Below, in pieces: positions 24,030 through 58,802 of a DNA stretch of 64,000 nt. The DNA is from a virus. The first letter of the stretch is position 1; every line of letters begins with the position of its first letter. A program made the position numbers and the translations under genes. A model generated the notes under the pieces. The model was not told where the DNA came from and made no database searches. It saw nothing but the letters and a program-made list of their open reading frames with translations. Location: the IMG/VR virus record IMGVR_UViG_3300032240_001333, positions 17,265 through 81,264 of that record; one strand, given 5' to 3'.

Positions 24030-24461
24030 TTATTCCTCTTCTAATATAACAGGTTCCGCCTTGAAACCTGGTTCTTGCGTTCCATATTCAGTTGTATTAT
24101 CTGACTCCTCGTCAGAATCTTCATCCAGCCATCCGTCGTCTTCGAGGGCGGCAAGGAAATCATTATCAATCATCCAATCAAGAATTGCCTCATCAACAGC
24201 CTCCGCACCATATTCAAGGGTAAAATCACTTGGCGGGTTGGCCCAGAGTTTATCCCAGATAACATCTAGAGTAGTATTAGCAGTTATTACAAAGTCATTG
24301 CCAAAATCATCTTGAGAATAATTATTAAACTTATCTTTAATTACATCCCATACCCATAGCCATACTAATGACATTGGAACATCCATGCCATTTAAAGTAT
24401 CGACAATTTGGTCCAATTGCATTCTAATCTTGACACCACGGTCATATTGTGCATTATCCAC
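24030..24461 (-). CDS. Acidic hypothetical protein
   Basis: 143 residues with a Trp-rich centre (SLVWLWVWDVIKDKF) and a very acidic tail (LEDDGWLDEDSDEESDNTTEYG). The start overlaps the gene at 24454; an ACGAAAGGGC word precedes it, a variant of the block's shared leader. Such acidic proteins can be DNA mimics, but nothing more specific is visible. Confidence 0.62.
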   Translation of the reverse strand: MDNAQYDRGVKIRMQLDQIVDTLNGMDVPMSLVWLWVWDVIKDKFNNYSQDDFGNDFVITANTTLDVIWDKLWANPPSDFTLEYGAEAVDEAILDWMIDNDFLAALEDDGWLDEDSDEESDNTTEYGTQEPGFKAEPVILEEE

Positions 24462-24708
24462 GCTGTTTTGCCCTTTCGTTGATAGCGAATGCTAAATTAT
24501 ACGTCATAACATACAAATCTGTCAATGCGTCCATACGTCCTTCAAAATAAAATTTATCTGCAATATTATCAGAATCACCTATTTCCGATAGTTTTGTTTC
24601 ACATTCATACATCCAATTTTTTAATTCACCATGCATGATGTTAGTACCTGTTTCTCCCAGGTCAATCAGCTTTTGAAGATGTGGGCTTAATTCATCAGAC
24701 ATTATCAT
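24454..24708 (-). CDS. Helical hypothetical protein
   Basis: 84 residues (SDELSPHLQKLIDLGETGTNIMHGELKNWMYECETKLSEIG). GGAGG six bases before selects the first ATG. The next two upstream genes (24695, 24958) encode proteins with the same 'FYFEGRMDALTDLY / WHYIQGQIFAIEHL' type of helix, suggesting duplicated small proteins. Confidence 0.62.
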   Translation of the reverse strand: MIMSDELSPHLQKLIDLGETGTNIMHGELKNWMYECETKLSEIGDSDNIADKFYFEGRMDALTDLYVMTYNLAFAINERAKQRG

Positions 24709-24862
24709 TTGCTACCTCCAATAAATGTTCTATGGCAAATATCTGTCCTTGTATATAATGCCAATCAATTGAATCATCTTTTAAAGATGTCTTTTCAATT
24801 AGTTCTTTATCTTGTTCAAGACTTATTAAATGAAGTTTCATATATTCGATTAAATTAGTCAT
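24695..24862 (-). CDS. Helical hypothetical protein
   Basis: 55 residues (MTNLIEYMKLHLISLEQDKELIEK..WHYIQGQIFAIEHLLEVANDNV). I use the ATG at 24862 because it overlaps the stop of the 24855 gene (ATGACTAA); an earlier GTG would need complete overlap with that gene. Confidence 0.58.
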   Translation of the reverse strand: MTNLIEYMKLHLISLEQDKELIEKTSLKDDSIDWHYIQGQIFAIEHLLEVANDNV

Positions 24863-24965
24863 GGATATCTTTCTGTCCAGTTTCTCTATTATGAATTGCA
24901 TATACTCCGCAATCACAATTAAAGTATCCTGGTGTGTCGGTGCATTCCCATTTATGACTATGCAT
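24855..24965 (-). CDS. Tiny Cys/His protein
   Basis: 36 residues: MHSHKWECTDTPGYFNCDCGVYAIHNRETGQKDIHD. Cys8, Cys17, Cys19 and several His could bind zinc. It joins its neighbours by overlapping stop/start codons (ATGCATAG upstream, ATGACTAA downstream), the normal spacing for this operon. Confidence 0.55.
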   Translation of the reverse strand: MHSHKWECTDTPGYFNCDCGVYAIHNRETGQKDIHD

Positions 24966-25137
24966 GATCGAAATACCCCTCAGCCCATAGTCCTTGCAAG
25001 AAACTGTTTGCCATTTCTAAATCGCTTCTAAGTTCTGTCTTATCCATTAAATTGGACGGGGTCCTAAGATAAAAAAGTTTTGCGTCATGTATAGCATTAA
25101 TCATTCTATTTAAATCATTTTCAGTATAACCTAGCAT
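24958..25137 (-). CDS. Helical hypothetical protein
   Basis: 59 residues (LGYTENDLNRMINAIHDAKLFYLRTPSNLMDKTELRSDLEMANSFLQGLWAEGYFDHA). Overlaps the 25131 gene by 7 nt and the 24855 gene by 8 nt. No family recognised. Confidence 0.6.
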   Translation of the reverse strand: MLGYTENDLNRMINAIHDAKLFYLRTPSNLMDKTELRSDLEMANSFLQGLWAEGYFDHA

Positions 25138-25340
25138 AAGAAGTACTCATCCCCTTCTTTATATCCATAATATTCATTATAAGATTGTCTTACATTATCA
25201 GGAGCAAATTCCATAAATTTAAATTCAGCATATTCTTCGCCTTCATCTAAATTAGAATTATTCCAGTCTTCAAACAATTGCTCTTTTATATCATGCTGGA
25301 TAGAATCTATTAGCATTTCATTCATATCATCTGTAAACAT
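25131..25340 (-). CDS. Acidic hypothetical protein
   Basis: 69 residues (MFTDDMNEMLIDSIQHDIKEQLFEDWNNSNLDEGEEYAEFKFMEFAPDNVRQSYNEYYGYKEGDEYFLC). First gene of a six-gene leftward unit. Its leader is AACGAAAGGGGAAAA before the ATG and it has a block-type promoter at 25364-25385. Confidence 0.65.
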   Translation of the reverse strand: MFTDDMNEMLIDSIQHDIKEQLFEDWNNSNLDEGEEYAEFKFMEFAPDNVRQSYNEYYGYKEGDEYFLC

Positions 25341-25363
25341 TTTTCCCCTTTCGTTATGGCTTA

Positions 25364-25385
25364 ATTATATATCAGACCACTGACA
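25364..25385 (-). promoter_or_regulatory. Block-type promoter TGTCAGT-N9-TATAAT
   Basis: TGTCAGT (25385-25379), nine bases, TATAAT (25369-25364). Same layout as at least a dozen other promoters in this block, with no -35 hexamer at the usual place. Confidence 0.75.
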
Positions 25386-25496
25386 TTTGTAAATAGAATA
25401 TTGGTGTGTTTCACACCACATTGTCCAAAGATTGAGATTTCCAGGAAATTTACTTGACATCCGTAAAACAGATATGATACCCTCACCAGCTGCGGG

Positions 25497-25630
25497 AAAT
25501 AAGAAACCCCCCAGCCGAGACTACTGGGGGATTAAGAGAGTGGCTGCTAGGACCTCAACGAAAGGAAAAGCCTGCTTTACTTAGCAACTAGATAAGTTGC
25601 ACCACTCATATGAATAGGCACCCTGGGCCT
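25497..25630 (-). ncRNA. Candidate trans-acting antisense sRNA
   Basis: Read leftward: an extended -10 promoter TGC-TATAAT (25642-25637), then about 130 nt without a gene, ending in a terminator hairpin CCCCCAG/CTGGGGG with a U-rich tail (stem around 25506-25530). The RNA folds into AGGC/GCCT and GCAAC/GTTGC hairpins, and GAGTGG can pair with CCACTC to close a larger loop. In that loop lies TTTTCCTTTCGTT (25569-25557), the exact complement of the leader AACGAAAGGAAAA that precedes many genes of this block. It could block or remodel ribosome binding across the regulon. A weak rightward promoter (TTGACA at 25454) leaves the opposite orientation possible. Confidence 0.55.
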
Positions 25631-25647
25631 AATCAAATTATAGCATA

Positions 25648-26052
25648 TTAGACGAGCAGTCTCTCCAATGCATACTTCTCACAGAATGATGTGAGATCCA
25701 TGGTAAAGATTGCTTCATTCTTCATACCTAAAACTTTATTCTCTAAGTTGCGATGATCATCTTGCTCATGCAATGAGAACGTTTGGTCCTTCCAATTAAT
25801 AACAGCGATCTTGTGCTCATTGTCACCAATTGAATTTACCTGCAGACCCCAGCCTGTTTCCATGTTCCATTGGTCGCCGATCAAATGACTAATAGCAATA
25901 CGTGTTGCATATGATTCGTCATTCCATCGAGGACGTGCTGCAATAACAGCATCCGCCAATTTACCTAACATGTTATATCCAGCCCAGTGTCCGTATAAGC
26001 AGATTGTATCTCCTGCTCCATCAACGAATACGTAGTTTGCTCTATCTCCCAT
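25648..26052 (-). CDS. Conserved phage protein starting MGDRANYVFV
   Basis: 134 residues. The start MGDRANYVFVDGAGDTICLYGHWAGYNM belongs to a phage/plasmid group I know only as hypothetical; the body alternates strands and helices (IAVINWKDQTFSLHEQ). Last gene of the 27822-25648 leftward unit; the candidate sRNA promoter overlaps its end. Confidence 0.7.
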   Translation of the reverse strand: MGDRANYVFVDGAGDTICLYGHWAGYNMLGKLADAVIAARPRWNDESYATRIAISHLIGDQWNMETGWGLQVNSIGDNEHKIAVINWKDQTFSLHEQDDHRNLENKVLGMKNEAIFTMDLTSFCEKYALERLLV

Positions 26053-26243
26053 TATATTTCCGCCTTTTCTAGTTGAGGTGTTTCTTCCGTTTTGTTTAAT
26101 TCTATCATTTCATAGGCCCATTTGTCTAGAGCCTCTGAATTACTATTTCGGTGATGTCCGCAAAATGCCAGCTCACCTGATGTGCTACGGGCTAACCATT
26201 TAGCCTGAGCTGAGCATGAATCACATTTGATCCATTCGCTCAT
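26052..26243 (-). CDS. Small zinc-finger protein
   Basis: 63 residues: IKCDSCSAQAKWLARS, then FCGHHRNSN, giving CxxC plus C/H/H, a plausible zinc finger; Lys/Glu-rich tail. The stop shares a base with the next ATG. The start overlaps the 26240 gene. Confidence 0.65.
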   Translation of the reverse strand: MSEWIKCDSCSAQAKWLARSTSGELAFCGHHRNSNSEALDKWAYEMIELNKTEETPQLEKAEI

Positions 26244-26386
26244 ATCTTGTTTTCCTCTATCATATCTGATAGGCGGTCAAGGAGCCAAGAGTCGATATCC
26301 GCTAAGTCTATCTCTCTTAACTTCTCAATGATCTCCTCACGAGCAAATTTATACCCGTCATCAAAACCATCTTTATACTCAGACAT
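26240..26386 (-). CDS. Small helical hypothetical protein
   Basis: 48 residues (SEYKDGFDDGYKFAREEIIEKLREIDLADIDSWLLDRLSDMIEENKI). The 'DGFDDGYKFAREEI' pattern is common in small phage proteins of unknown role. Overlaps neighbours by 8 and 4 nt; RBS AGGGGAGA. Confidence 0.65.
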   Translation of the reverse strand: MSEYKDGFDDGYKFAREEIIEKLREIDLADIDSWLLDRLSDMIEENKI

Positions 26387-26612
26387 TTTCTCCCCTAACA
26401 TATGCTAATTCATTCTCAGCATAATCTTTTTCATTTAATACTGTAAGATTGTGAGTTTGAATTAACTTGCTCACCTTCTCAATATTACCTGTTCCGATCT
26501 CGAATGTCAAGGACTTACGGTCATGAGAATCAGGATCAAGCCCCATGACCTCCGCATCCCATGAGGCTCTATGGAAAGCAACATTACTATTTGCTTTTAA
26601 TTTATAAAACAT
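26379..26612 (-). CDS. Hypothetical protein
   Basis: 77 residues from the ATG at 26612 (MFYKLKANSNVAFHRASWDAEVMGLDPDSHDRKSLTFEIGTGNIEKV), which overlaps the previous stop as TAATG. Beta-alpha composition; no family recognised. Confidence 0.62.
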   Translation of the reverse strand: MFYKLKANSNVAFHRASWDAEVMGLDPDSHDRKSLTFEIGTGNIEKVSKLIQTHNLTVLNEKDYAENELAYVRGENV

Positions 26613-27064
26613 TAGTTCCAATCCACATCTGTGTCTTCAATTGACCAATCATTTACTTCAACATCGCTTCCATATGATGTTAAAGTAAGTTCATCTCCAA
26701 GTTTGTAATGAGCGTCAAAGTTATCAACCTCATCAAGTGGAACCTGAACAGTTACTTCAAAATTAATAGTTCCAGTTACTGTAACTGTCTTTGATAATTC
26801 AAATCCAAACAGTTCTGCTATTTGTTGAAGCGCTTCTTCCTTTGTATAATTAGGATTATATAATTCAACTAGAAGTTCTTCTAACTCATTAACCTTTGAT
26901 TTAAGGCTATGATAGTTATCATTAGCACGACGACCTTGATCTAAGGCCCATTCTAAATCAACTACCTTATCGGTAATATATTCAGGTGCTTCAGGTGCTG
27001 CGTAGGTTCCTGCAATCTTCTTGTAAGTCACAAGTAGATTAGGATTGTATGTTTCTATTGACAT
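26612..27064 (-). CDS. Hypothetical protein
   Basis: 150 residues: a coiled-coil-like middle (EWALDQGRRANDNYHSLKSKVNELEELLVELY) and a beta-rich end (TVTVTGTINFEVTVQVPLDEVDN). The leader AACGAAAGGAAA before its start lies inside the end of the upstream gene, where it is read as codons Thr-Lys-Gly-Asn. Confidence 0.65.
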   Translation of the reverse strand: MSIETYNPNLLVTYKKIAGTYAAPEAPEYITDKVVDLEWALDQGRRANDNYHSLKSKVNELEELLVELYNPNYTKEEALQQIAELFGFELSKTVTVTGTINFEVTVQVPLDEVDNFDAHYKLGDELTLTSYGSDVEVNDWSIEDTDVDWN

Positions 27065-27822
27065 TAGTTTCCTTTCGTTGTAGTAGTGGTTAAGTATACA
27101 TTATGGGTCTGACATTCCGCCATAGCATCTTCATCCTGCCAAGAGCCTTGATTACATTCTGAGCAGAATTCTCCGCATCCGTCTTCACAATAATCTATTG
27201 TGTTAAAAGATTGGCAGGCATAACATCTGTTTTCATATTCTAAGTTTTCATTAACTTCACCACGAACAATCTCGTATTCACCACCCCAACCAGTCTCTTC
27301 TTCAAATTCAAGGGTTAATAGAGAGTTTGGAACAAGATTGCTAAGTTTAGTTAATATAGTAACGGCAGGTGACCAAGCAGTATTATATTTATAGATAACC
27401 CAGTTGTCTTCACCCTCTGATGTATATTCAAGTAATTCAGTATCAGGATATTCATCTTTGTCTGCTACGGCAACATCCCATTTTGTTCCCCAGTTAGTTG
27501 TATTCCAGTTATACCAATCTTTCTGAGTTTTAGCATGCTCCATTTCTTTATCAAACCAATCAGGTTGATTTGTAGAAATTCCAAGTCGTGCAGGTTGTTG
27601 AACATATTCTTGCATTGTAATACCATCTTGTAATGGAGAATGTATATTCCAAAATGCAAAGACAGGATTAGAGTAAGTAGATTCAGTTACTTCCATTTTA
27701 TTAGTTTCCATGTTCCAACTATCGTGCCATACCATAAATGGCTCGTTAAGTTTATCTTTGATAAAATCTATCTCAGACTTTGGTCCTTGGATTGTTAATG
27801 TGTTATACACCCAGTTAGGCAT
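27064..27822 (-). CDS. Api92/DUF1281-like protein with zinc-ribbon tail
   Basis: 252 residues. MPNWVYNTLTIQG, the FAFWNIHSP segment and NWYxWNTTNWGTKWD are hallmarks of the Api92/YubB (DUF1281) family, a ferredoxin-like fold of unknown role found in phages and plasmids. The C-terminal 50 residues add CYAC, CEDGC, CSEC clusters, a probable double zinc site. The ATG at 27822 follows AACGAAAGGAA; an upstream in-frame ATG would begin inside the promoter. Confidence 0.75.
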   Translation of the reverse strand: MPNWVYNTLTIQGPKSEIDFIKDKLNEPFMVWHDSWNMETNKMEVTESTYSNPVFAFWNIHSPLQDGITMQEYVQQPARLGISTNQPDWFDKEMEHAKTQKDWYNWNTTNWGTKWDVAVADKDEYPDTELLEYTSEGEDNWVIYKYNTAWSPAVTILTKLSNLVPNSLLTLEFEEETGWGGEYEIVRGEVNENLEYENRCYACQSFNTIDYCEDGCGEFCSECNQGSWQDEDAMAECQTHNVYLTTTTTKGN

Positions 27823-27847
27823 ATTATTCCTTTCGTTGATTAGCGCA

Positions 27848-27869
27848 ATTGTATCAGAGTCGACTGACA
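27848..27869 (-). promoter_or_regulatory. Block-type promoter TGTCAGT-N9-TACAAT
   Basis: TGTCAGT (27869-27863), nine bases ending TGA, TACAAT (27853-27848). Drives the 27822-25648 unit. Confidence 0.7.
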
Positions 27870-27946
27870 TTATCAAGGATTTCCAGGAATTTTATTGATG
27901 TTCTCATAAAAGCGAAAAAAGGCCCTTAGCTATTGGGGGCAGCTTG

Positions 27947-28020
27947 CGATCCCAACGGGACTTGAACCCGTAGCCTTTACCGTGACAGGGTAACGATCTA
28001 ACCAATTGATCTATGGGACC
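27947..28020 (-). tRNA. tRNA-Asp (GTC)
   Basis: Leftward cloverleaf: acceptor GGTCCCA/TGGGATC with one G-U pair, D arm GATC/GATC, anticodon stem TTACC/GGTAA with loop CTGTCAC, T arm ACGGG/CCCGT, discriminator G as expected for Asp. It lies just after the DUF932 gene and a GC-rich hairpin (28029-28045). Confidence 0.92.
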
Positions 28021-28051
28021 TAGATGTGGGGCCCTTTCGGGCCCCATTTAT

Positions 28052-29059
28052 TTATACTAGTTGCAGATTATTTTGTACAACTTTTAACAAGCGATTTTTT
28101 TCTGCGTTAATTACAGGATTGAAACCACTTGCAGATGCTAAAAGAGTTTCAGCATTTCCACGGCGATGCCAATCTAAACGCTCAGTTAAAGCGTTAAATG
28201 CTCCCCATGCATTACCAGCGATCATGTGATTAAATTCGCCAGTGTAGATATCATTAATGAGATCAACTTTCGTTTCCCATTTTTTAATTGCGCCCTTAGT
28301 ATCTTTTGTAGGCTTAGGGTACGCAGCCAAAATAATATCGTTAAATTGTTGAGCGGTGATTTCTTTTTGAATCATCTGCTTAGCCATGATATCGAATTTA
28401 TCCATGTATGAATTCGCAAGACCTAAAGCCTCACGAGCCACACGCACACGACCTTCAGCAGATTGTGTATGACGGATTTTGAAAGATTGCTTAACGCCAT
28501 CTTTCTTTTTGATATTGCCCATCGCAAGATTTAGCGTGTTAGCGCATACAACACGAACGGGTGTTATAGATGCTTGAATAGCAATTGAGCCATCATGTGA
28601 TGTATTAATAAGCAGATAAGTTTTAACAACATCTGCCACGCCACTAGGATCAAGAACGGTTTCACGCTCTAATGCTAATGAGCCGAATACAACACGACCG
28701 CCACGAATTGAGCCAGCAGTCTCCCAACGTCCACCGCCATCAAGAATATTATCGCCGAATGCGAATAATTCTTCATTTTGCAATGGTACATAACGCTCAC
28801 CGACAATTCCTAAAACATCGGTTTGTGTTTTGTCCGTAGGATTAGTACGCACAACATATTGATAGTTTTTATCGCTTGTTAATGTAGATGGAATTTCTAA
28901 TTCCTCTAAGCGAACATTCCAACCATTAAGGTTAGCGGTTTCTAGCATTTCGCTAGTTGTTTTTTCTTCTGTGAACACGGTACCTAAACCATGCCACGCA
29001 GGTTCACGAAATGATGCAAAAGAAGTTTTGCCATTTTGTGATTCTAGTTCATGAGCCAT
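28052..29059 (-). CDS. DUF932 phage/plasmid-like protein
   Basis: 335 residues, normal length for DUF932 (TIGR03299). Hallmarks: PAWHGLGTVF near the start, YVPLQNEELFAFGD, GGRVVFGSLALER, LLINTSHDGSIAIQASITPVRVVCANTLNLA, and an RHTQSAEGRVRVAREALGL helix. Function unknown, widespread in phages and plasmids and often highly expressed early. It has a block-type promoter (29088-29109) and the AACGAAAGGAAAA leader. It is richer in G+C than the average gene here. Confidence 0.9.
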   Translation of the reverse strand: MAHELESQNGKTSFASFREPAWHGLGTVFTEEKTTSEMLETANLNGWNVRLEELEIPSTLTSDKNYQYVVRTNPTDKTQTDVLGIVGERYVPLQNEELFAFGDNILDGGGRWETAGSIRGGRVVFGSLALERETVLDPSGVADVVKTYLLINTSHDGSIAIQASITPVRVVCANTLNLAMGNIKKKDGVKQSFKIRHTQSAEGRVRVAREALGLANSYMDKFDIMAKQMIQKEITAQQFNDIILAAYPKPTKDTKGAIKKWETKVDLINDIYTGEFNHMIAGNAWGAFNALTERLDWHRRGNAETLLASASGFNPVINAEKNRLLKVVQNNLQLV

Positions 29060-29087
29060 TTATTTTCCTTTCGTTTAATGTAGCGTT

Positions 29088-29109
29088 ATTCTAGCATACA
29101 TGACTGACA
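29088..29109 (-). promoter_or_regulatory. Block-type promoter TGTCAGT-N9-TAGAAT
   Basis: TGTCAGT (29109-29103), nine bases ending TGC, TAGAAT (29093-29088). A GGCGTGTCG word (29135-29127) lies 17 bases further upstream. Confidence 0.72.
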
Positions 29110-29169
29110 TTTGGCAATATCCTATCCGACACGCCAGGGATTTTAAAAGCTTGACTTAAAGCAGAAAAT

Positions 29170-29190
29170 GCCCCCACAGTATCTGGGGGC
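29170..29190 (-). terminator. Bidirectional terminator hairpin
   Basis: GCCCCCA (29170-29176) pairs with TGGGGGC (29184-29190). Leftward it is followed by ATTTTC after the 29197 gene; rightward by TTTTAATT. Confidence 0.7.
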
Positions 29191-29196
29191 TTTTAA

Positions 29197-29415
29197 TTAA
29201 GAAATGACTAACGATTTAAAATCGGTTGGAAAAAACATTGCCAGAATCTTTTTCTTTTCAACATTGTCATATACATATGCTTTGACATTGCCCTGGAACT
29301 TATTTAGATTTTTTCTAACAACTTTATTTAGCGCTTCACGATTTAATATATCATTAAAATGTAAAGTTAAATCATGAGCTTTGTTAGCATCATAGATTTC
29401 TACACGATACCGCAT
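29197..29415 (-). CDS. Small hypothetical protein
   Basis: 72 residues (MRYRVEIYDANKAHDLTLHFNDILNREALNKVVRKNLNKFQGNVKAYVYDNVEKKKILAMFFP), beta-alpha-beta in pattern. Leader is CAAAAGGAAA, a variant of the block's consensus; its promoter has only a TAAAAT box next to the hairpin at 29454-29478. Confidence 0.65.
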   Translation of the reverse strand: MRYRVEIYDANKAHDLTLHFNDILNREALNKVVRKNLNKFQGNVKAYVYDNVEKKKILAMFFPTDFKSLVIS

Positions 29416-29453
29416 TTGTTTCCTTTTGTAGTAGGGAGAACTATTTTAACATA

Positions 29454-29478
29454 GGGGGCTAGATTTTGTCTAGCCCCC
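29454..29478 (-). terminator. Hairpin after the 29488 gene
   Basis: GGGGGCTAGA (29454-29463) pairs perfectly with TCTAGCCCCC (29469-29478). There is no U-run leftward; the -10 box of the next gene starts almost at once, so terminator and promoter are fused. Confidence 0.6.
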
Positions 29479-29487
29479 ATTTGTTTA

Positions 29488-29910
29488 TTATAGATATTGA
29501 GCGATAGCGTTGTAAGTAGAAGTTGAAACTACTTCCTCATCTGTCATTTTCAGAATACGGATAGCGTTTTCAATTTCATCTTTTGTAGCCTTGTAAGTAT
29601 GAACATGGAAGGTTTCAAAATCACGCTCAGGTTGCTTAGGAAAATCCTTCTCGTCAATTTTTAAGTCAAAATCAACATTGAGTTGGTTATTCCATGAACG
29701 ATAATTTGTGCGGACATTTTCCGCTTTTGAGATATTATCAAGAGCAAACTTAACAATATCTTTATTCCACTTAGCCAAAGTCTTTTGATACTTTGCCTCG
29801 TTCTCGTCTTGTTTCTTATAGTTAGTTTCAATTTCTGCTAACTTAGTTTCTAAAGCCTTGATAACTTTAGGTGTAGCGATTTTAACGCTAATTGCTTTTT
29901 GTCTTGACAT
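29488..29910 (-). CDS. Helical hypothetical protein
   Basis: 140 residues, Lys-rich coiled coil (ALETKLAEIETNYKKQDENEAKYQKTLAKWNKDIVKFALDNISKAENV), then EKDFPKQPERDFETFHVHTYKATKDEIENAIRILKM. Similar proteins occur in actinophages without known function. Leader AACGAAAGGAAA; block-type promoter at 29937-29958. Confidence 0.68.
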   Translation of the reverse strand: MSRQKAISVKIATPKVIKALETKLAEIETNYKKQDENEAKYQKTLAKWNKDIVKFALDNISKAENVRTNYRSWNNQLNVDFDLKIDEKDFPKQPERDFETFHVHTYKATKDEIENAIRILKMTDEEVVSTSTYNAIAQYL

Positions 29911-29936
29911 GTATTTCCTTTCGTTAGGTTGGGTTT

Positions 29937-29970
29937 ATTATAGCGGACACCACCGACAAGCGGTGTCCGC
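29937..29970 (-). promoter_or_regulatory. Block-type promoter inside an inverted repeat
   Basis: TGTCGGT (29958-29952), nine bases, TATAAT (29942-29937). The TGTCGGT element sits between perfect arms GCGGACACC (29943-29951) and GGTGTCCGC (29962-29970), which also act as the hairpin after the 29978 gene. Terminator and promoter element thus overlap. Confidence 0.7.
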
Positions 29971-29977
29971 ATATTAC

Positions 29978-30121
29978 TTAGTTTAGAACTACTGAAGTCC
30001 AGCGTTCTTTGCCATTTACATCTAGCAAGATACGAGCCACTCCGCTTGGGTGATTATCAACGGCTTTGATAATTCCAGTAATACCACTTGTAGTGGTTGT
30101 GTATAGTTGTCCGATTTCCAT
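29978..30121 (-). CDS. Small beta-barrel-like protein
   Basis: 47 residues (MEIGQLYTTTTSGITGIIKAVDNHPSGVARILLDVNGKERWTSVVLN), resembling a KOW/SH3-like barrel. The ATG at 30121 follows AACGAAAGGAAA; a longer frame to 30172 would read through the leader. Promoter TGTCGGT (30171-30165)/TATAAT (30155-30150). Confidence 0.65.
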   Translation of the reverse strand: MEIGQLYTTTTSGITGIIKAVDNHPSGVARILLDVNGKERWTSVVLN

Positions 30122-30172
30122 TTTTGTTTCCTTTCGTTTATGGGTTGTTATTATAGCACCTGCCACCGACAA

Positions 30173-30442
30173 TTAGTAATCGGTTTCAGGTAGCCACGCT
30201 TCTAGGTGGTGAGCCTCGATAATTGCTAAGGCAGGAGCCTTATCTCTGCCCCTATATGACACGCCTTGAGGCATATCTATCAGGCGATCATAGTCCTCAT
30301 CATAGTACGCATCTATGGCATCAATACATGGTTGTACCATTGATAGCGGAACGGGTGGATAGTGATTACCTTGTAAGTGATAACCAATAGCCATTTCTAA
30401 GTCTAAGTTTTCTGCTAAGTCTATTGCTGTATTTAATCCCAT
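30173..30442 (-). CDS. Hypothetical protein
   Basis: 89 residues (GLNTAIDLAENLDLEMAIGYHLQGNHYPPVPLSMVQPCIDAIDAYYDEDYDRLIDMP). The centre resembles small phage proteins that contain a GYHLQxNHYPPVP motif, function unknown. It starts directly after the stop of the 30443 gene. Confidence 0.7.
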   Translation of the reverse strand: MGLNTAIDLAENLDLEMAIGYHLQGNHYPPVPLSMVQPCIDAIDAYYDEDYDRLIDMPQGVSYRGRDKAPALAIIEAHHLEAWLPETDY

Positions 30443-30718
30443 TTATTCATTCTCCTCTAATATAGTTTCGGATAAGTTTTCTATTTCGTTAATACTATCC
30501 GTCATCTCTTTCATCTCGGTTTCGGATAGTAATACTTTAGTAGTTAGGTCTGCTGTTTTACTAGCAAGACTAGCAGAATAAAGATAAATTAACTTTGCGA
30601 AAGTTTTATCATCTATTTCATTTCTGCGTTCCATTAAGTCCCCTGCTAAGGCTGTAATATCATCATTAAATACTGCTTCCTTAGTTGCTTCTGATATTGC
30701 TATGGCTGTTGCTAACAT
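30443..30718 (-). CDS. Helical hypothetical protein
   Basis: 91 residues, all helical (LATAIAISEATKEAVFNDDITALAGDLMERRNEIDDKTFAKLIYLYSASLASKTADLTTKVLL). Leader AACGAAAGGAAAA; promoter TGTCGGT (30766-30760), N9, TATAAT (30750-30745). Confidence 0.68.
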   Translation of the reverse strand: MLATAIAISEATKEAVFNDDITALAGDLMERRNEIDDKTFAKLIYLYSASLASKTADLTTKVLLSETEMKEMTDSINEIENLSETILEENE

Positions 30719-30770
30719 ATTTTCCTTTCGTTGGTGATGGGCTGATTATACACCAGCCCACCGACATTTA

Positions 30771-31031
30771 CTAAGCCAGTACTATAAGAGCCTGCGTAGC
30801 AAACTCATTAGCAATATCTAACTTTGCTTGGATTTCATCTCTAGTCATATCGGCAGGGTTACCGACAAACTCAGTAATTGCGCCTTGATTGTAAGTTGCA
30901 AACCTACCAGCAGGCAAGTTTTCTACTTTTGGATAAAACTCACCTTTTGGATCTAATAAAGAGTTAAACTTAACTCCATTAACTTCGAATGGATAAACCA
31001 CCCAATTAGTTGTGTCTAGCATTGTTTTCAT
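30771..31031 (-). CDS. Hypothetical protein
   Basis: 86 residues, alpha/beta (TTNWVVYPFEVNGVKFNSLLDPKGEFYPKVENLPAGRFATYNQGAITEFVGNPADMTRDEIQAKLDIANEFA). Leader AACGAAAGGAAA; promoter TGTCAGT (31080-31074), N9, TACAAT (31064-31059). Function unknown. Confidence 0.68.
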   Translation of the reverse strand: MKTMLDTTNWVVYPFEVNGVKFNSLLDPKGEFYPKVENLPAGRFATYNQGAITEFVGNPADMTRDEIQAKLDIANEFATQALIVLA

Positions 31032-31155
31032 TTTATTTCCTTTCGTTTAAGTAGTGGAATTGTAGCAGATCTAACTGACATTTTGTTGCGACACGCCGTC
31101 AGCTCGTAAAAATTTTCAGGGTGTTTTATATCACATTCTTAACGACACGCCCGAC

Positions 31156-31196
31156 CCCGCAGTATTTGCGGGCAAAGCCCCCTTTTGTCAAGGGGG
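31156..31196 (-). terminator. Tandem hairpins after the 31210 unit
   Basis: CCCGCA/TGCGGG (31156-31172) and CCCCCTT/AAGGGGG (31178-31196) follow the last gene of a short leftward operon. Confidence 0.6.
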
Positions 31197-31209
31197 ACAC
31201 GCTGGTTAT

Positions 31210-31302
31210 TTAATAACACTCTCCACATAATGGATAGTAATATTCGCCATCATCAGTAATAAACTGAGTGGTATCTTGATTGCAAGATGAACATTTATTC
31301 AT
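31210..31302 (-). CDS. Tiny zinc-ribbon protein
   Basis: 30 residues: MNKCSSCNQDTTQF...YPLCGECY, two CxxC pairs about 20 residues apart. Coupled to the upstream gene by overlapping TAATG. Confidence 0.62.
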   Translation of the reverse strand: MNKCSSCNQDTTQFITDDGEYYYPLCGECY

Positions 31303-31511
31303 TATAAATCCCCCATTTCTGCGTCAGCCATGCGTGTATTCATATGATCTGCATCAATATCACGCCAGCCAAAGTAAGCCATTTCTGACATATCATAACA
31401 TTCAGGGCAGACATAATCGTCGCCAAAGATTTCATATTCCTCAATAGTTTCGAAAGTCTGAGTAGCACCACAGATTTCGTACATTAAGCAAGCAACTGTT
31501 AGATTTTCCAT
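31302..31511 (-). CDS. Small zinc-finger protein
   Basis: 69 residues: CLMYEICGATQTF (CxxxxxC) and YVCPECYDMSE knuckles, then an acidic tail. Leader AACGAAAGGTGAA; promoter TGTCAGT (31561-31555), N9, TAGTAT (31545-31540). Confidence 0.65.
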   Translation of the reverse strand: MENLTVACLMYEICGATQTFETIEEYEIFGDDYVCPECYDMSEMAYFGWRDIDADHMNTRMADAEMGDL

Positions 31512-31649
31512 TTTAGTTCACCTTTCGTTAAGTAATGGAATACTAACACATCACACTGACATTTCCAAATCGACACGCCGAAATTTTCAGGGCATTTTTA
31601 TCATGTGTCTTAAATCACAAAACGCCCCCACAGCTTTTGCGGGCTTTTT

Positions 31650-31787
31650 CTAATCTGTCAAGTCGACACGCCGTTTATGTTTTAATTTTCTTGTGTATTT
31701 TTTTTTATTGCGAACAGGTTGGGCCGCATTGCTGCGGCGTAATTCCTGAATGCGTTTTACTTTATTTAGAAGAATATTTTGGCACAT
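31650..31787 (-). CDS. Small basic protein with RRSNAA motif
   Basis: 45 residues (MCQNILLNKVKRIQELRRSNAAQPVRNKKKYTRKLKHKRRVDLTD), pI very high. ELRRSNAA..VRNKKKYxRKxKHK matches a short protein type I have seen in several phages, function unknown, possibly nucleic-acid binding. It overlaps the previous gene by 26 nt. Longer in-frame starts exist but lie deep in that gene. Confidence 0.55.
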   Translation of the reverse strand: MCQNILLNKVKRIQELRRSNAAQPVRNKKKYTRKLKHKRRVDLTD

Positions 31788-31953
31788 GATAACCGCTTGC
31801 TTCATGAAATTTAACAACATCAAAACGCTCATTATCTTTTGCAAACATTTCTGCAAAATCGTGAACAGTTTTAGAAAAAACAGCGGGATGAATTTTATCG
31901 CTGATATATTTTAAAATTTCAGCGGTTGCGATATAGTCTTTACGGGTCATCAT
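31762..31953 (-). CDS. Small helical hypothetical protein
   Basis: 63 residues (TRKDYIATAEILKYISDKIHPAVFSKTVHDFAEMFAKDNERFDVVKFHEASGYHVPKYSSK), a pattern common in small phage proteins (DYxxxAExL... FxxDNxRFDxxKFxxA). Overlaps its neighbours. Confidence 0.7.
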   Translation of the reverse strand: MMTRKDYIATAEILKYISDKIHPAVFSKTVHDFAEMFAKDNERFDVVKFHEASGYHVPKYSSK

Positions 31954-32150
31954 TTTGCGGACACCAATCCAATCAAGTTAAAATTTTTAGTATACATTTT
32001 ACCATTAGGCATAGTTAAATTATATCTTGCGTTTTCTACGGCAAAGCCATGATCTTTACATCTAGCAAAAGCCTCAAACGCTTGAAGAGCATCAGAAAAT
32101 TCATGGGTAAATTCTAATTTCCCATCATAGTAAGTAAATAATTTATACAT
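31950..32150 (-). CDS. Small hypothetical protein
   Basis: 66 residues (MYKLFTYYDGKLEFTHEFSDALQAFEAFARCKDHGFAVENARYNLTMPNGKMYTKNFN), ferredoxin-like strand-helix pattern. The ATG at 32150 overlaps the stop of the 32150-32281 gene (TAATG). Confidence 0.66.
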   Translation of the reverse strand: MYKLFTYYDGKLEFTHEFSDALQAFEAFARCKDHGFAVENARYNLTMPNGKMYTKNFNLIGLVSAK

Positions 32151-32281
32151 TAGATCACCCACTCATCTAAAACACAATCACAACTTTCAACATCATAATT
32201 TTTTTCATCGCCCCAAAATACAAATCCTGCGCCACCGCATTCTTCACATTCAATTGCGATTATTTCTTTTATATTTCCCAT
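32150..32281 (-). CDS. Tiny zinc-finger protein
   Basis: 43 residues with CEECGGAGFVFWGDE and SCDC, similar to one DnaJ-type CxxCxGxG knuckle. Leader ACGAAAGGAAAA; promoter TGTCAGC (32333-32327), N9, TATAAT (32317-32312). Confidence 0.65.
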   Translation of the reverse strand: MGNIKEIIAIECEECGGAGFVFWGDEKNYDVESCDCVLDEWVI

Positions 32282-32334
32282 TTAGTTTTCCTTTCGTAGT
32301 TTGTTAATAGAATTATAGCGGATACCGCTGACAC

Positions 32335-32550
32335 CTAGTAGGTGTCAGGGTAAACATCTTCGGGTTTTCCAATCCCGATTACACGATATTTATTACGGAT
32401 CATGCCCGTATCAATTTCGATTAAATAAGCATCAATATATCTGCCAAAAAAAGCAGAATGTTTTTCAGCAGAAACAATTTTTCCGCTGATAGTATCGGAT
32501 GAATAAGTCCTACCGACTAGCAAGTCGGTGTGAGAGTAGATATTAGCCAT
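32335..32550 (-). CDS. Small hypothetical protein
   Basis: 71 residues, beta-rich (TDLLVGRTYSSDTISGKIVSAEKHSAFFGRYIDAYLIEIDTGMIRNKYRVIGIGKPEDVYPD). Leader AACGAAAGGAAAA; promoter TGTCAGT (32600-32594), N9, TAAAAT (32584-32579), inside the palindrome CCCACTGA/TCAGTGGG. Confidence 0.66.
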   Translation of the reverse strand: MANIYSHTDLLVGRTYSSDTISGKIVSAEKHSAFFGRYIDAYLIEIDTGMIRNKYRVIGIGKPEDVYPDTY

Positions 32551-32601
32551 AGTTAGTTTTCCTTTCGTTTATGGTGTAATTTTAACATAACCCACTGACA
32601 A

Positions 32602-32751
32602 TCAGTGGGTTGGCGTTTCCGCCATGATTAGTTTTAATAAACCAATTCGTTGCGATTTGGTTAAATTTAATTTCGCAACAGTTTCGGATTTTATTCCGCC
32701 ATTATTATATTCGAACAAAAGTTCGTTATAGATTTCGCTAAATTCTTTCAT
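32602..32751 (-). CDS. Small HTH-like protein
   Basis: 49 residues (MKEFSEIYNELLFEYNNGGIKSETVAKLNLTKSQRIGLLKLIMAETPTH); KSETVAKLNLTKSQRIGLL could be a helix-turn-helix. Leader AACGAAAGGAAAA; promoter TGTCAGT (32800-32794), N9, TAGAAT (32784-32779). Confidence 0.6.
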   Translation of the reverse strand: MKEFSEIYNELLFEYNNGGIKSETVAKLNLTKSQRIGLLKLIMAETPTH

Positions 32752-32838
32752 TTAGTTTTCCTTTCGTTTAATAGTTTTATTCTAACACCTACCACTGACA
32801 TTTTGCCTATTACTGACCAGTATTTGAGACAGTATTCG

Positions 32839-32854
32839 TGTGATCATAATCACA
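32839..32854. promoter_or_regulatory. Crp/GlxR-like palindrome
   Basis: TGTGA-TCATAA-TCACA, a perfect match to the Crp/GlxR consensus, centred about 74 bases upstream of the predicted start of the 32602 transcript. Confidence 0.6.
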
Positions 32855-32858
32855 CGAG

Positions 32859-32933
32859 TTATCCACGACACGCCCGAAGTTTTCCACAGATTTTCAGGGG
32901 TTTTCCACATCTGTGCATAAACCCTGTGGATAA
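32859..32933. other. DnaA-box cluster, candidate replication origin
   Basis: Four DnaA boxes in 75 bp: TTATCCACG (32859-32867, one mismatch), TTTTCCACA (32880-32888), TTTTCCACA (32901-32909) and TTATCCACA on the other strand (32933-32925). The spacing of about 21-24 bp is near two helical turns. The region is non-coding. Confidence 0.6.
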
Positions 32934-32985
32934 CGCCCACAAAAAGCTGCGGGCCAATGTCGCCATTGTCAAGGCGACACGCCGT

Positions 32986-33084
32986 CTATTTCTTGTGAGT
33001 TTCCTCACATACGCATTTGGTATATGCGCCAGCGTTTAACCTGCCACATTTAGGGCAGGTATAGAAACCAGCAGGATTAGTCAT
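32986..33084 (-). CDS. Tiny zinc-ribbon protein
   Basis: 32 residues: YTCPKCGRLNAGAYTKCVCEETHKK, four Cys in CxxC and CxC. Last of five overlapping tiny genes. The codons for its end contain another TGTGA-N6-TCACA palindrome (32994-33009). Confidence 0.6.
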   Translation of the reverse strand: MTNPAGFYTCPKCGRLNAGAYTKCVCEETHKK

Positions 33085-33190
33085 TTAACCCACCGCTCTT
33101 TACATCGTAGTAGATAGCGTAGACTAGGGCAGATACTACACCTAGCAACGCTAATTGGATGGCGGTGGTGATTAGTCTATTTAGTGTCAT
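33077..33190 (-). CDS. Tiny membrane protein
   Basis: 37 residues with one TM helix (LITTAIQLALLGVVSALVYAIYY) and a short tail DVKSGGLND. Overlaps both neighbours. Confidence 0.58.
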   Translation of the reverse strand: MTLNRLITTAIQLALLGVVSALVYAIYYDVKSGGLND

Positions 33191-33321
33191 TACTTACGAC
33201 CTCTCCATATTTTAATTCCAGCAATTACTACAACAGATACGATAATTAGTTTCCAATCTAGTGCGACATAGAACCAATCGCTATCTACGCAGAAACCATA
33301 TGAGTTTAATTCAATAGTCAT
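33190..33321 (-). CDS. Tiny membrane protein
   Basis: 43 residues with a C-terminal TM helix (LDWKLIIVSVVVIAGIKIW) ending RGRK. One base of its stop is shared with the next start. With the gene at 33077 it may form a small membrane complex (inference). Confidence 0.58.
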   Translation of the reverse strand: MTIELNSYGFCVDSDWFYVALDWKLIIVSVVVIAGIKIWRGRK

Positions 33322-33324
33322 TTA

Positions 33325-33504
33325 TTACTCCGTCCAGTCTAAGGTTAATTCTTGCTCTGCTAATTCATCAAGGCTAATTATATCGGTATCAAAATCGCTA
33401 ACGATATCTTCATCGCCCTCTTGCTTGGCGATAGCCTCTCTCTCGTCCCAATGGCGGTATGCGTCTGCGATATCCGCTTGGATAGTGTCCCATTTAGTCA
33501 TCAT
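33325..33504 (-). CDS. Small acidic hypothetical protein
   Basis: 59 residues, helical then acidic (TIQADIADAYRHWDEREAIAKQEGDEDIVSDFDTDIISLDELAEQELTLDWTE). Starts 2 nt after the stop of the 33506 gene. Unknown. Confidence 0.6.
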   Translation of the reverse strand: MMTKWDTIQADIADAYRHWDEREAIAKQEGDEDIVSDFDTDIISLDELAEQELTLDWTE

Positions 33505-33505
33505 A

Positions 33506-33616
33506 TTAGAAACCCCAGCAATCTGAGCAGATAACTACATCGCTCTCATCGTAGAATATAGAGGACATCTCTACATCGCACACCTTACAATTTAAGGTGA
33601 TTAGTGTGTCGTTCAT
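33506..33616 (-). CDS. Tiny zinc-ribbon protein
   Basis: 36 residues: NCKVCDVEMSS...VVICSDCWGF, two CxxC pairs. First gene of the five-gene unit. Its leader is AACGAAAGAAGG and its promoter TGTCGGT (33671-33665) with a poor -10 (TAAGGT); a Crp-like site (33690-33705) lies about 54 bases upstream of the start point. Confidence 0.62.
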   Translation of the reverse strand: MNDTLITLNCKVCDVEMSSIFYDESDVVICSDCWGF

Positions 33617-33689
33617 TTTCTTACCTTCTTTCGTTTTTGTTATGGTGAAACCTTATCATACCCCACCGACAAAGCGCAAGCCTTGCCGA

Positions 33690-33705
33690 TGTGATGTTGC
33701 TCACA
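33690..33705. promoter_or_regulatory. Crp/GlxR-like palindrome
   Basis: TGTGA-TGTTGC-TCACA between the 33706 gene and the promoter at 33650-33671. Confidence 0.6.
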
Positions 33706-33930
33706 TTAGTAGGCACCATAGGTGCCATCCTTTAGTGATTGGATAGTAGTCAATACATGGTCAATAGCCATCATGACTATCTCTTTATCAGAGCGGTCTT
33801 GATAAGCCCAATGATCCTTATAGTAGACATATGCTTGCTCATATGTCCAGCAATAAGTATCGTGATAATACTTAAGCGTAGGAGATAGCGTTTCATACGC
33901 CTCATTTATTTCTTTTATCATAGTTATCAT
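33706..33930 (-). CDS. Hypothetical protein
   Basis: 74 residues, aromatic and helical (INEAYETLSPTLKYYHDTYCWTYEQAYVYYKDHWAYQDRSDKEIVMMAIDHVLTTI). First gene of the leftward block. Its mRNA has the longest leader here, about 100 nt, containing a duplicated 17-mer; RBS AACGAAAGGA. Confidence 0.66.
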   Translation of the reverse strand: MITMIKEINEAYETLSPTLKYYHDTYCWTYEQAYVYYKDHWAYQDRSDKEIVMMAIDHVLTTIQSLKDGTYGAY

Positions 33931-34295
33931 ATTTATATCCTTTCGTTGATATATATTGAGCGGTTATTTGCTAGGCTCACCTTTCGGATTATTTGCTAGG
34001 CTCACGCTCTAATTCTTTATTTAATTTATACTATAATCATATAAGAGGGGACTGACATTTTGCAAGTCACAAATCGGACATGTCGGACATTTTGAAAACT
34101 TTTTTTGGAAAATCGTGTGATACTCCTCACATATGGTCGCTCTAAAGGGATAAATCGGACATTTCAAAATGGTGTATCATACAAAATAAAAATATATTAA
34201 CATTTTGTGAAATCTGAAATACTAGTCGACTAGGATTATATGTGTATATATGAGATATATTTTAGTTAACTAAGATATTAATGTATAATTTAAAT
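33931..34295. promoter_or_regulatory. Divergent control region at the start of the leftward block
   Basis: No gene in 365 bases. Contents: a direct repeat TTATTTGCTAGGCTCAC at 33964-33980 and 33989-34005; leftward promoter TGTCAGT (34057-34051), N9, TATGAT (34041-34036); ACAAATCGGACAT (34069-34081) followed by GTCGGACAT, and AAATCGGACAT again at 34152-34162; a Crp/GlxR palindrome TGTGA-TACTCC-TCACA (34116-34131); and a rightward TATAAT (34284-34289) for the leaderless gene at 34296. Confidence 0.65.
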
Positions 34296-57993: not shown

Positions 57994-58802
57994 GTAAGAA
58001 TTTAAACTTTATTACTTTATATCCAAAAATACATATGTATAAGAATGTATTTAAAGATGTAGACTCTTTTTTAGAAAATGCAAAAAAATGTGAAATTTGG
58101 GAACAATGGTATACATTTGGAGATATGCTTGCTCTTCAAGAGGCACCAATTAAATTTAATAATTTTCCAACAAAAGAAGAATATGTTAATGCAAGATCAT
58201 GGCAGGCAGAAAATGAAAATGATAAATTAAGAAATGAACTTACTGAAGAAGTAGGAGAAATTTTTTATGATGTAACAAACCATTTCCTATCTACATACCC
58301 AGAAATTAAATTTTCTAATTGGGTAAAAAATCCAGCATCAATTAATAAATATACTAATAATGCAGGTATATCAGAAAATTATGCAATGAATTACCATACA
58401 GACTTTGTTGAAGCTGAAAAAGATTGGCCAGGGTCTAAATTTTCAATAACTACAACTTTTTATTTAAATGACACATATGATAATGGTGAAATATGTTTTA
58501 AAATTAATGATGAATATATTTCTTATAAACCACAAAAGGGTGATGTCATAGTATTTCCATCAAGCCCACCATACTACCATGCAGTAAGAAAAGCTAGTGG
58601 TTCTGATAGGTACATGATTAGATCTTTTTGGCAATTTGACTACGATGGTTCTTCAGAATGGATTGAGGGTCAAAATAAATATGGAAAAGATAAATGGGAT
58701 GAAATGGAAAAAGAAAGAATTAAAGGTATTAGATTTAATTATCAATTTGATGGAGAAAGTTTTCATGAATTTTTTGGTAAAGATAATGGAATTTATAGAT
58801 GA
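57990..58802 (+). CDS. 2OG-Fe(II) oxygenase
   Basis: 270 residues. HxD in MNYHTDFVE, core TFYLNDTYDNGEICFKINDEYISYKPQKGDVIVFPS, distal His in YYHAVRK, Arg in DRYMIRSFWQFD, then a polar tail of about 55 residues. The ATG at 57990 overlaps the previous stop (ATGA). Confidence 0.88.
   Translation: MSKNLNFITLYPKIHMYKNVFKDVDSFLENAKKCEIWEQWYTFGDMLALQEAPIKFNNFPTKEEYVNARSWQAENENDKLRNELTEEVGEIFYDVTNHFLSTYPEIKFSNWVKNPASINKYTNNAGISENYAMNYHTDFVEAEKDWPGSKFSITTTFYLNDTYDNGEICFKINDEYISYKPQKGDVIVFPSSPPYYHAVRKASGSDRYMIRSFWQFDYDGSSEWIEGQNKYGKDKWDEMEKERIKGIRFNYQFDGESFHEFFGKDNGIYR

Follow-up and report, generated by a model that had tools for sequence, protein, structure and literature searches.

The locus described here raises the question of whether a single phage-encoded RNA could govern a whole block of phage genes through one short word that stands before their start codons. 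The window, by which we mean the whole stretch of DNA analysed, is 64 kb out of an IMG/VR virus record of 81,264 bp, and at 25642-25497 its minus strand holds a promoter-like site, a structured RNA of ~130 nt and a terminator. An earlier note on this DNA had described a leftward extended -10 box, about 130 nt of hairpin-rich RNA and a terminator with a U-rich tail, and all three are found. The -10 element (TG-C-TATAAT; 25645-25637, -) sits directly 3' of the stop codon of a conserved 134-aa gene of unknown function (25648-26052, -; phrog_31860, 65 viral loci), which lies immediately upstream of the RNA. Transcription would start near 25630, and the small RNA (~25630-25497, -) has a computed fold with z = -3.2 that none of 200 shuffles equalled in stability. 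The predicted intrinsic terminator (25533-25505, -) has an 11-bp stem, and its U-rich tail extends to about 25497. The element had been placed between 25648 and 25340; the promoter, RNA and terminator do lie in this interval, but the RNA ends near 25497 and not at 25340. The segment 25340-25497 (-) is a separate promoter and leader, distinct from the small RNA, and it includes, just 3' of the terminator, a second conserved stretch that reads roughly GCCC(G/A)CAAAA..GAGGGTANCATAT..TTTACGGANGTCAAATATATTTCCYGGAAA and recurs in nearly all relatives.

The RNA begins with a 5' hairpin, AGGCCCAGGGTGCCTATT (25613-25630, -), which is seen in the fold and is present in many relatives too. It is followed by a three-way junction (25538-25607, -), identified by RNAalifold, covariation and a model match, in which an outer helix (25607-25602 with 25543-25538, -) encloses a hairpin (25600-25595 with 25589-25584, -) and a loop-bearing helix (25575-25571 with 25551-25546, -). 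The covariance model matches the window at 25615-25529 with 72.8 bits, the window sequence itself being part of the model. As had been claimed, the loop UUUUCCUUUCGUU (25569-25557, -), also written TTTTCCTTTCGTT, is the exact reverse complement of the leader word AACGAAAGGAAAA. In the free fold of the window RNA, the loop is in part only about half unpaired.

All start-associated copies of the leader word fall within a leftward-read block that spans 24.4-34 kb (-). With up to two mismatches, AACGAAAGGAAAA occurs 17 times in the window as opposed to 3.4 ± 1.9 expected, an over-representation of ~5-fold that was reached in none of 100 shuffles. The core AACGAAAG/ACGAAAG is located 14-19 nt upstream of 15 start codons on the minus strand, in agreement with the earlier count of about 15. 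The word AACGAAAGGAAAA itself precedes the starts at 32751 (word at 32756-32768), 32550 (32557-32569), 30718 (30720-30732) and 29059 (29063-29075; a DUF932 protein). The others, all likewise on the minus strand, are AACGAAAGGATAT (33935-33947; gene start 33930), AACGAAAGAAGGT (33623-33635; start 33616 of a 36-aa ORF, with the word separate from the Shine-Dalgarno sequence), TACGAAAGGAAAA (32286-32298; start 32281), AACGAAAGGTGAA (31517-31529; start 31511), AACGAAAGGAAAT (31035-31047, start 31031, and 29913-29925, start 29910), AACGAAAGGAAAC (30126-30138, start 30121, and 27067-27079, start 27064), AACGAAAGGAATA (27825-27837; start 27822), AACGAAAGGGGAA (25343-25355; start 25340, the gene just 3' of the RNA) and AACGAAAGGGCAA (24468-24480; GTG start 24461). 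A cassette promoter of the form [AT]TGTC[AG]GT...TATAAT precedes most leaders (24400-34000, -), pointing to a phage-specific -35 variant or an activator site. Promoter spacing, with the word close behind the -10 box, implies a position near the mRNA 5' end.

The word is conserved beyond the Shine-Dalgarno sequence, as AACGAAAG is retained even where the latter is separate, for example in AACGAAAGAAGG... and AACGAAAGAGG.... Throughout the 81-kb record, ACGAAAGG occurs 14 times on the minus strand and once on the plus strand, the plus copy being the RNA itself. The same asymmetry is seen in 49 of 50 related records, with 2-14 copies on the RNA strand and 0-2 on the opposite strand, and in most of these the RNA is itself one of the opposite-strand copies. 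On the regulon strand, 459 of 636 GAAAGG copies are preceded by C, as opposed to 2 of 21 on the opposite strand, and this C is the base that matches the RNA loop. The 16S rRNA tail would favour A, not C, at this position. Judged by their sequences, the leaders are a strand-specific regulon tag.

The RNA belongs to a family, of which 79 distinct homologues were collected from IMG/VR contigs. A 20-mer of the window RNA is present in 22 such contigs, scaffold patterns with the loop left free match 33 and 69 contigs, and a search with the neighbouring 134-aa protein gave the 65 viral loci. RNAalifold applied to 36 of the 79 RNAs returns the three-way junction with 18 pairs, 10 of them with compensatory changes, and the covariation of the named 20-pair structure is 0.408 compared with 0.151 ± 0.014 when shuffled and at most 0.13 when slid. 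A conserved secondary structure is what is expected of a trans-acting base-pairing small RNA. A TATAAT-like box occurs within 75 nt upstream in 66 of the 79 homologues, and those lacking it start right after the neighbouring gene, in its 3' UTR, which suggests a 3'-UTR-derived form. In Rfam 15 no family scored at or above its gathering threshold for the RNA, and relaxed thresholds gave weak non-specific matches only, plus a tRNA elsewhere in the loci. Nucleotide searches of isolated phages and plasmids with the RNA gave no matches, and the exact scaffold pattern has none across 84,980 species genomes; hence the RNA appears to be confined to viral contigs. Streptomyces phage Karimac has a tmRNA gene directly 3' of the 134-aa homologue (L161, 4417-4695), in the slot taken here by the small RNA. 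A tmRNA reading of the latter was rejected, as neither ARAGORN nor Rfam detects one in the window. Protein similarity to actinobacteriophages indicates that the host is probably an actinobacterium; a lookup via ribonucleotide reductase led to mixed metagenome bins only.

The loop is the constant part of this family. In all 63 loci that extend far enough, which were found via the neighbouring protein alone and without use of the RNA, CUUUCGUU (also written CTTTCGTT) follows the 134-aa gene at a distance of no more than 230 nt, compared with five further occurrences in 948 kb of the strand concerned. It is also present in 90 of 92 locus matches of the loop-unconstrained scaffold pattern (overlapping loci of one contig being counted separately). 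The stems vary with compensation while the loop stays constant, and in one locus (L094) a plain GGUGGGGAGG/CCUCCCCAC hairpin replaces the junction and carries the same loop, UUUCCUUUCGUU. As expected of a trans-acting small RNA, the family has a conserved seed with complementarity to several mRNAs from other loci. The leader word might instead serve a phage protein or the promoter cassette, leaving the complementary loop as a leftover or a coincidence, and the conserved cassette does accompany the leaders and could have spread by duplication, as such cassettes can. A loop word kept in every one of the 63 loci, stems that change around a loop that does not, and matching loops on unrelated scaffolds (L094 and the two phages DSL-LC01 and L272 discussed below) make this the least probable of the readings that we weighed.

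The earlier note had named, as a case that would count against its proposal, relatives with the leaders but without the loop. The 63 loci next to the same gene provide none, and the one homologue without the loop word (G034, in L111) is also without leaders: it has the scaffold at 49 bits, a different loop and no ACGAAAGG in 21 kb, and it is the sole exception to RNA-strand leaders among the 50 related records. The homologue with this other hairpin loop, CCUCGAAAA, is seen at L111 2982-3073 and L205 4661-4752, on a contig without the leader word, and TTCGAGG-type leaders, sought as its partner, were not found. A locus that counts against the pairing model is L124, in which the loop CUUUCGAU occurs alongside AACGAAAGG leaders.

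A lake metagenome assembly (PMC10611076) provides an independent case, the Actinomycetia phage DSL-LC01 (OQ999401). Its genome has a 42% relative of the 134-aa protein and no CCTTTCGT on the leader strand. With leaders present, it looked like a refuting case until its own matching hairpin was found. About 21 leaders are present, mostly CGAAAGGACAA (type ...AAAGGACAA), and near 30170 a 16-bp hairpin unrelated to the window scaffold bears a loop, UAGUUUACUUGUCCUUUACGUC / UUGUCCUUU, that matches them. This loop gives -16 kcal/mol with its own leaders and -8.9 with those of the window, while the window loop is less selective (-17.6 with its own leaders and -16.6 with those of DSL-LC01). In leader complementarity the DSL-LC01 loop ranks second among the 823 hairpins of the record, and the top-ranked hairpin, which lies at about 27186 on the opposite strand and next to the gene start at 27180, looks like the antisense of a leader. 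A relative (L272) has the same 22-nt loop on a changed stem together with AAAAGGACAA leaders. Loop and leader, as read from these genomes, thus correspond across lineages. Covarying structure, a near-invariant loop, strand-specific leaders and this correspondence together give good support to the small antisense RNA against a shared leader that the earlier note had put forward. A second loop motif, UUUACUU, occurs ahead of the anti-leader word in class B RNAs (for example L069, 10446-10547) and in the DSL-LC01 hairpin; it is complementary to the scaffold linker UAAGUAA, and this complementarity may represent a switch or a second contact.

Within the main family the cores of leader and loop are both near-invariant, so that only the flanks can reveal co-variation. 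GGAA leaders make up 188 of 347 with CC loops (UUCCUUUCGUU) versus 16 of 90 with AC loops (UUACUUUCGUU; p = 3e-10), GGTA leaders show the opposite trend (25 of 347 versus 23 of 90), and the GGAA fraction per contig is 0.54 with CC loops and 0.17 with AC loops (p 3e-5). The contigs are related, and the association is suggestive only, not being significant once relatedness is counted: the class changes about seven times on the neighbour-protein tree, but supported branches hold only two independent pairs. CC leaders favour CC loops in terms of duplex energy, and AC-class leaders are indifferent (-14.6 versus -14.8).

These loop classes also bear on the possibility that the loop imitates the 16S rRNA 3' end or is directed at host mRNAs, with the leaders being only strong ribosome-binding sites. 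The loop does contain CCUUUC, as in the 16S tail, and could pair likewise, and CCUCCU occurs within the loop of the cluster K hairpin described below. Such mimicry is nevertheless very improbable, as AC-class loops lose the CC that pairs with the Shine-Dalgarno sequence yet keep CUUUCGUU, the 16S tail offers no partner for the conserved AAC or for the C that precedes GAAAGG, the leaders are restricted to one strand and one block, and the DSL-LC01 loop follows its own leader.

We propose, with a probability of roughly 75%, that the RNA acts in trans to repress translation initiation across a phage regulon. The RNA appears to be real and conserved, and we strongly infer that it pairs with the leaders. 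It is oriented like its would-be target genes and hence would act in trans. The conserved three-way junction of the ~130-nt transcript encoded at 25630-25497 (-) would present the loop UUUUCCUUUCGUU, which would pair with AACGAAAGG(AAAA) at the 5' terminus of the short leaders that precede about 15 genes in the leftward block. Computed pairings of loop and leader involve 8-13 bp at -12 to -20 kcal/mol and are stronger than the pairing of a leader with the 16S tail, which is worth about -10 kcal/mol. By covering the Shine-Dalgarno region in competition with the 30S subunit, the RNA would prevent 30S binding and silence the whole gene set together, probably as an early-to-late shut-off. Pairing might have its main effect elsewhere, through decay of the duplex by RNase III or through protection or activation of the mRNA. 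In favour of this, the word stands close to the 5' terminus of short leaders, where pairing could change mRNA stability, and two RNAs that pair with phage mRNAs show both modes of action, P22 sar blocking translation and lambda OOP causing decay by RNase III (PMC12197685). We consider this alternative unlikely, although less so than the two readings set aside above, in that the pairing overlaps the Shine-Dalgarno sequence in most leaders, which makes a block of initiation the simplest outcome, and no leader hairpin that pairing could open was noticed in an unsystematic look at the leaders.

Small RNAs of bacteria with C-rich loops use a fixed seed to control many mRNAs near the Shine-Dalgarno sequence, at varied target sites. 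GcvB (PMC3879156) is such a single fixed-seed RNA and resembles the repressor proposed here in this respect, but it is bacterial, has an unrelated scaffold and recognises varied sites rather than one shared tag. Among phage RNAs, sar of P22, OOP of lambda and c4 of P1/P7 likewise pair with phage mRNA and limit its expression, each with one main target as described (PMC12197685), whereas the RNA of the window faces about 15 leaders. The T4 RegA protein targets about 30 phage mRNAs at their initiation regions (PMC3014915), and the small RNA would be the RNA counterpart of such a single phage regulator of many phage mRNAs, with exact pairing in place of a protein that binds A/U-rich sites.

A close parallel in layout is found in cluster K mycobacteriophages, in which the start-associated sequence (SAS) repeats, GGGATAGGAGCCC, were described by Pope 2011 (PMC3203893). 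As in the window phage, a short word conserved beyond the Shine-Dalgarno sequence stands in many copies (11-19 in cluster K) and one orientation directly before the starts of a subset of genes, with upstream promoter cassettes (ESAS; PMC3203893; PMC11373665; PMC12699233). The word differs, being GGGATAGGAGCCC there and AACGAAAGG here, as do the phages and their hosts, and the likeness is one of layout and not of membership. One complementary site was described in Adephagia, Angelica and CrimD (Pope 2011; PMC3203893), and we find that in Adephagia a long hairpin in the gap between genes 92 and 93 has this single K1 copy as its apical loop (L235 9600-9760, equal to 58600-58760, with the hairpin at 58640-58725; annotated as a hypothetical protein in some records). 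The hairpin is a long single stem, unlike the junction of the window RNA. In ten of the 11 phages examined, covarying stems bear a loop that contains CCTCCTATCC, replaced by CCTCCTTCCC in two of them, and the loop 9-mer is absent from that strand in 60 first-order Markov genomes. Late transcription appears to begin between the same two genes (PMC11373665). The purpose of the SAS has been open since 2011 and was still called ill-defined in 2024, and the portions of the cluster K literature available to us (PMC3203893; PMC11373665; PMC12699233) contain no mention of a complementary RNA.

In other cluster K subclusters an exact SAS complement was not clearly seen, and the cluster K parallel hence remains a lead. 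A contiguous-stem hairpin scan found no general anti-SAS hairpin in K2, K3 and K5-K7 apart from a candidate in Aminay; the K1 hairpin escaped the same scan owing to an interior loop in its stem. Other hairpins with a near-complement of SAS in the loop occur in Ekdilam (L247) and DarthP (L249) near 18 kb of the locus and in Aminay (L259) near 7.2 kb, with loops such as GGGCUCGUAUCGC and a 13-bp stem with GGGCUCCCC, and these are possibly alternative anti-SAS elements. It is conceivable, at somewhat under even odds, that actinobacteriophages have a general class of regulatory RNAs in which a lineage-specific tag at the starts of early genes is matched by one hairpin or junction RNA with an anti-tag loop, and that in cluster K the late transcript itself silences the early genes that carry the tag, which would account for the SAS.

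The RNA described here defines a family outside Rfam that is widespread among uncultured, probably actinobacterial, freshwater phages. If the proposed function is correct, it would constitute a phage-wide translational switch made of RNA, in which one anti-tag loop acts against a tag common to a whole regulon. The cluster K parallel would give the SAS a testable function, in phages that grow on a laboratory strain, M. smegmatis mc2 155.
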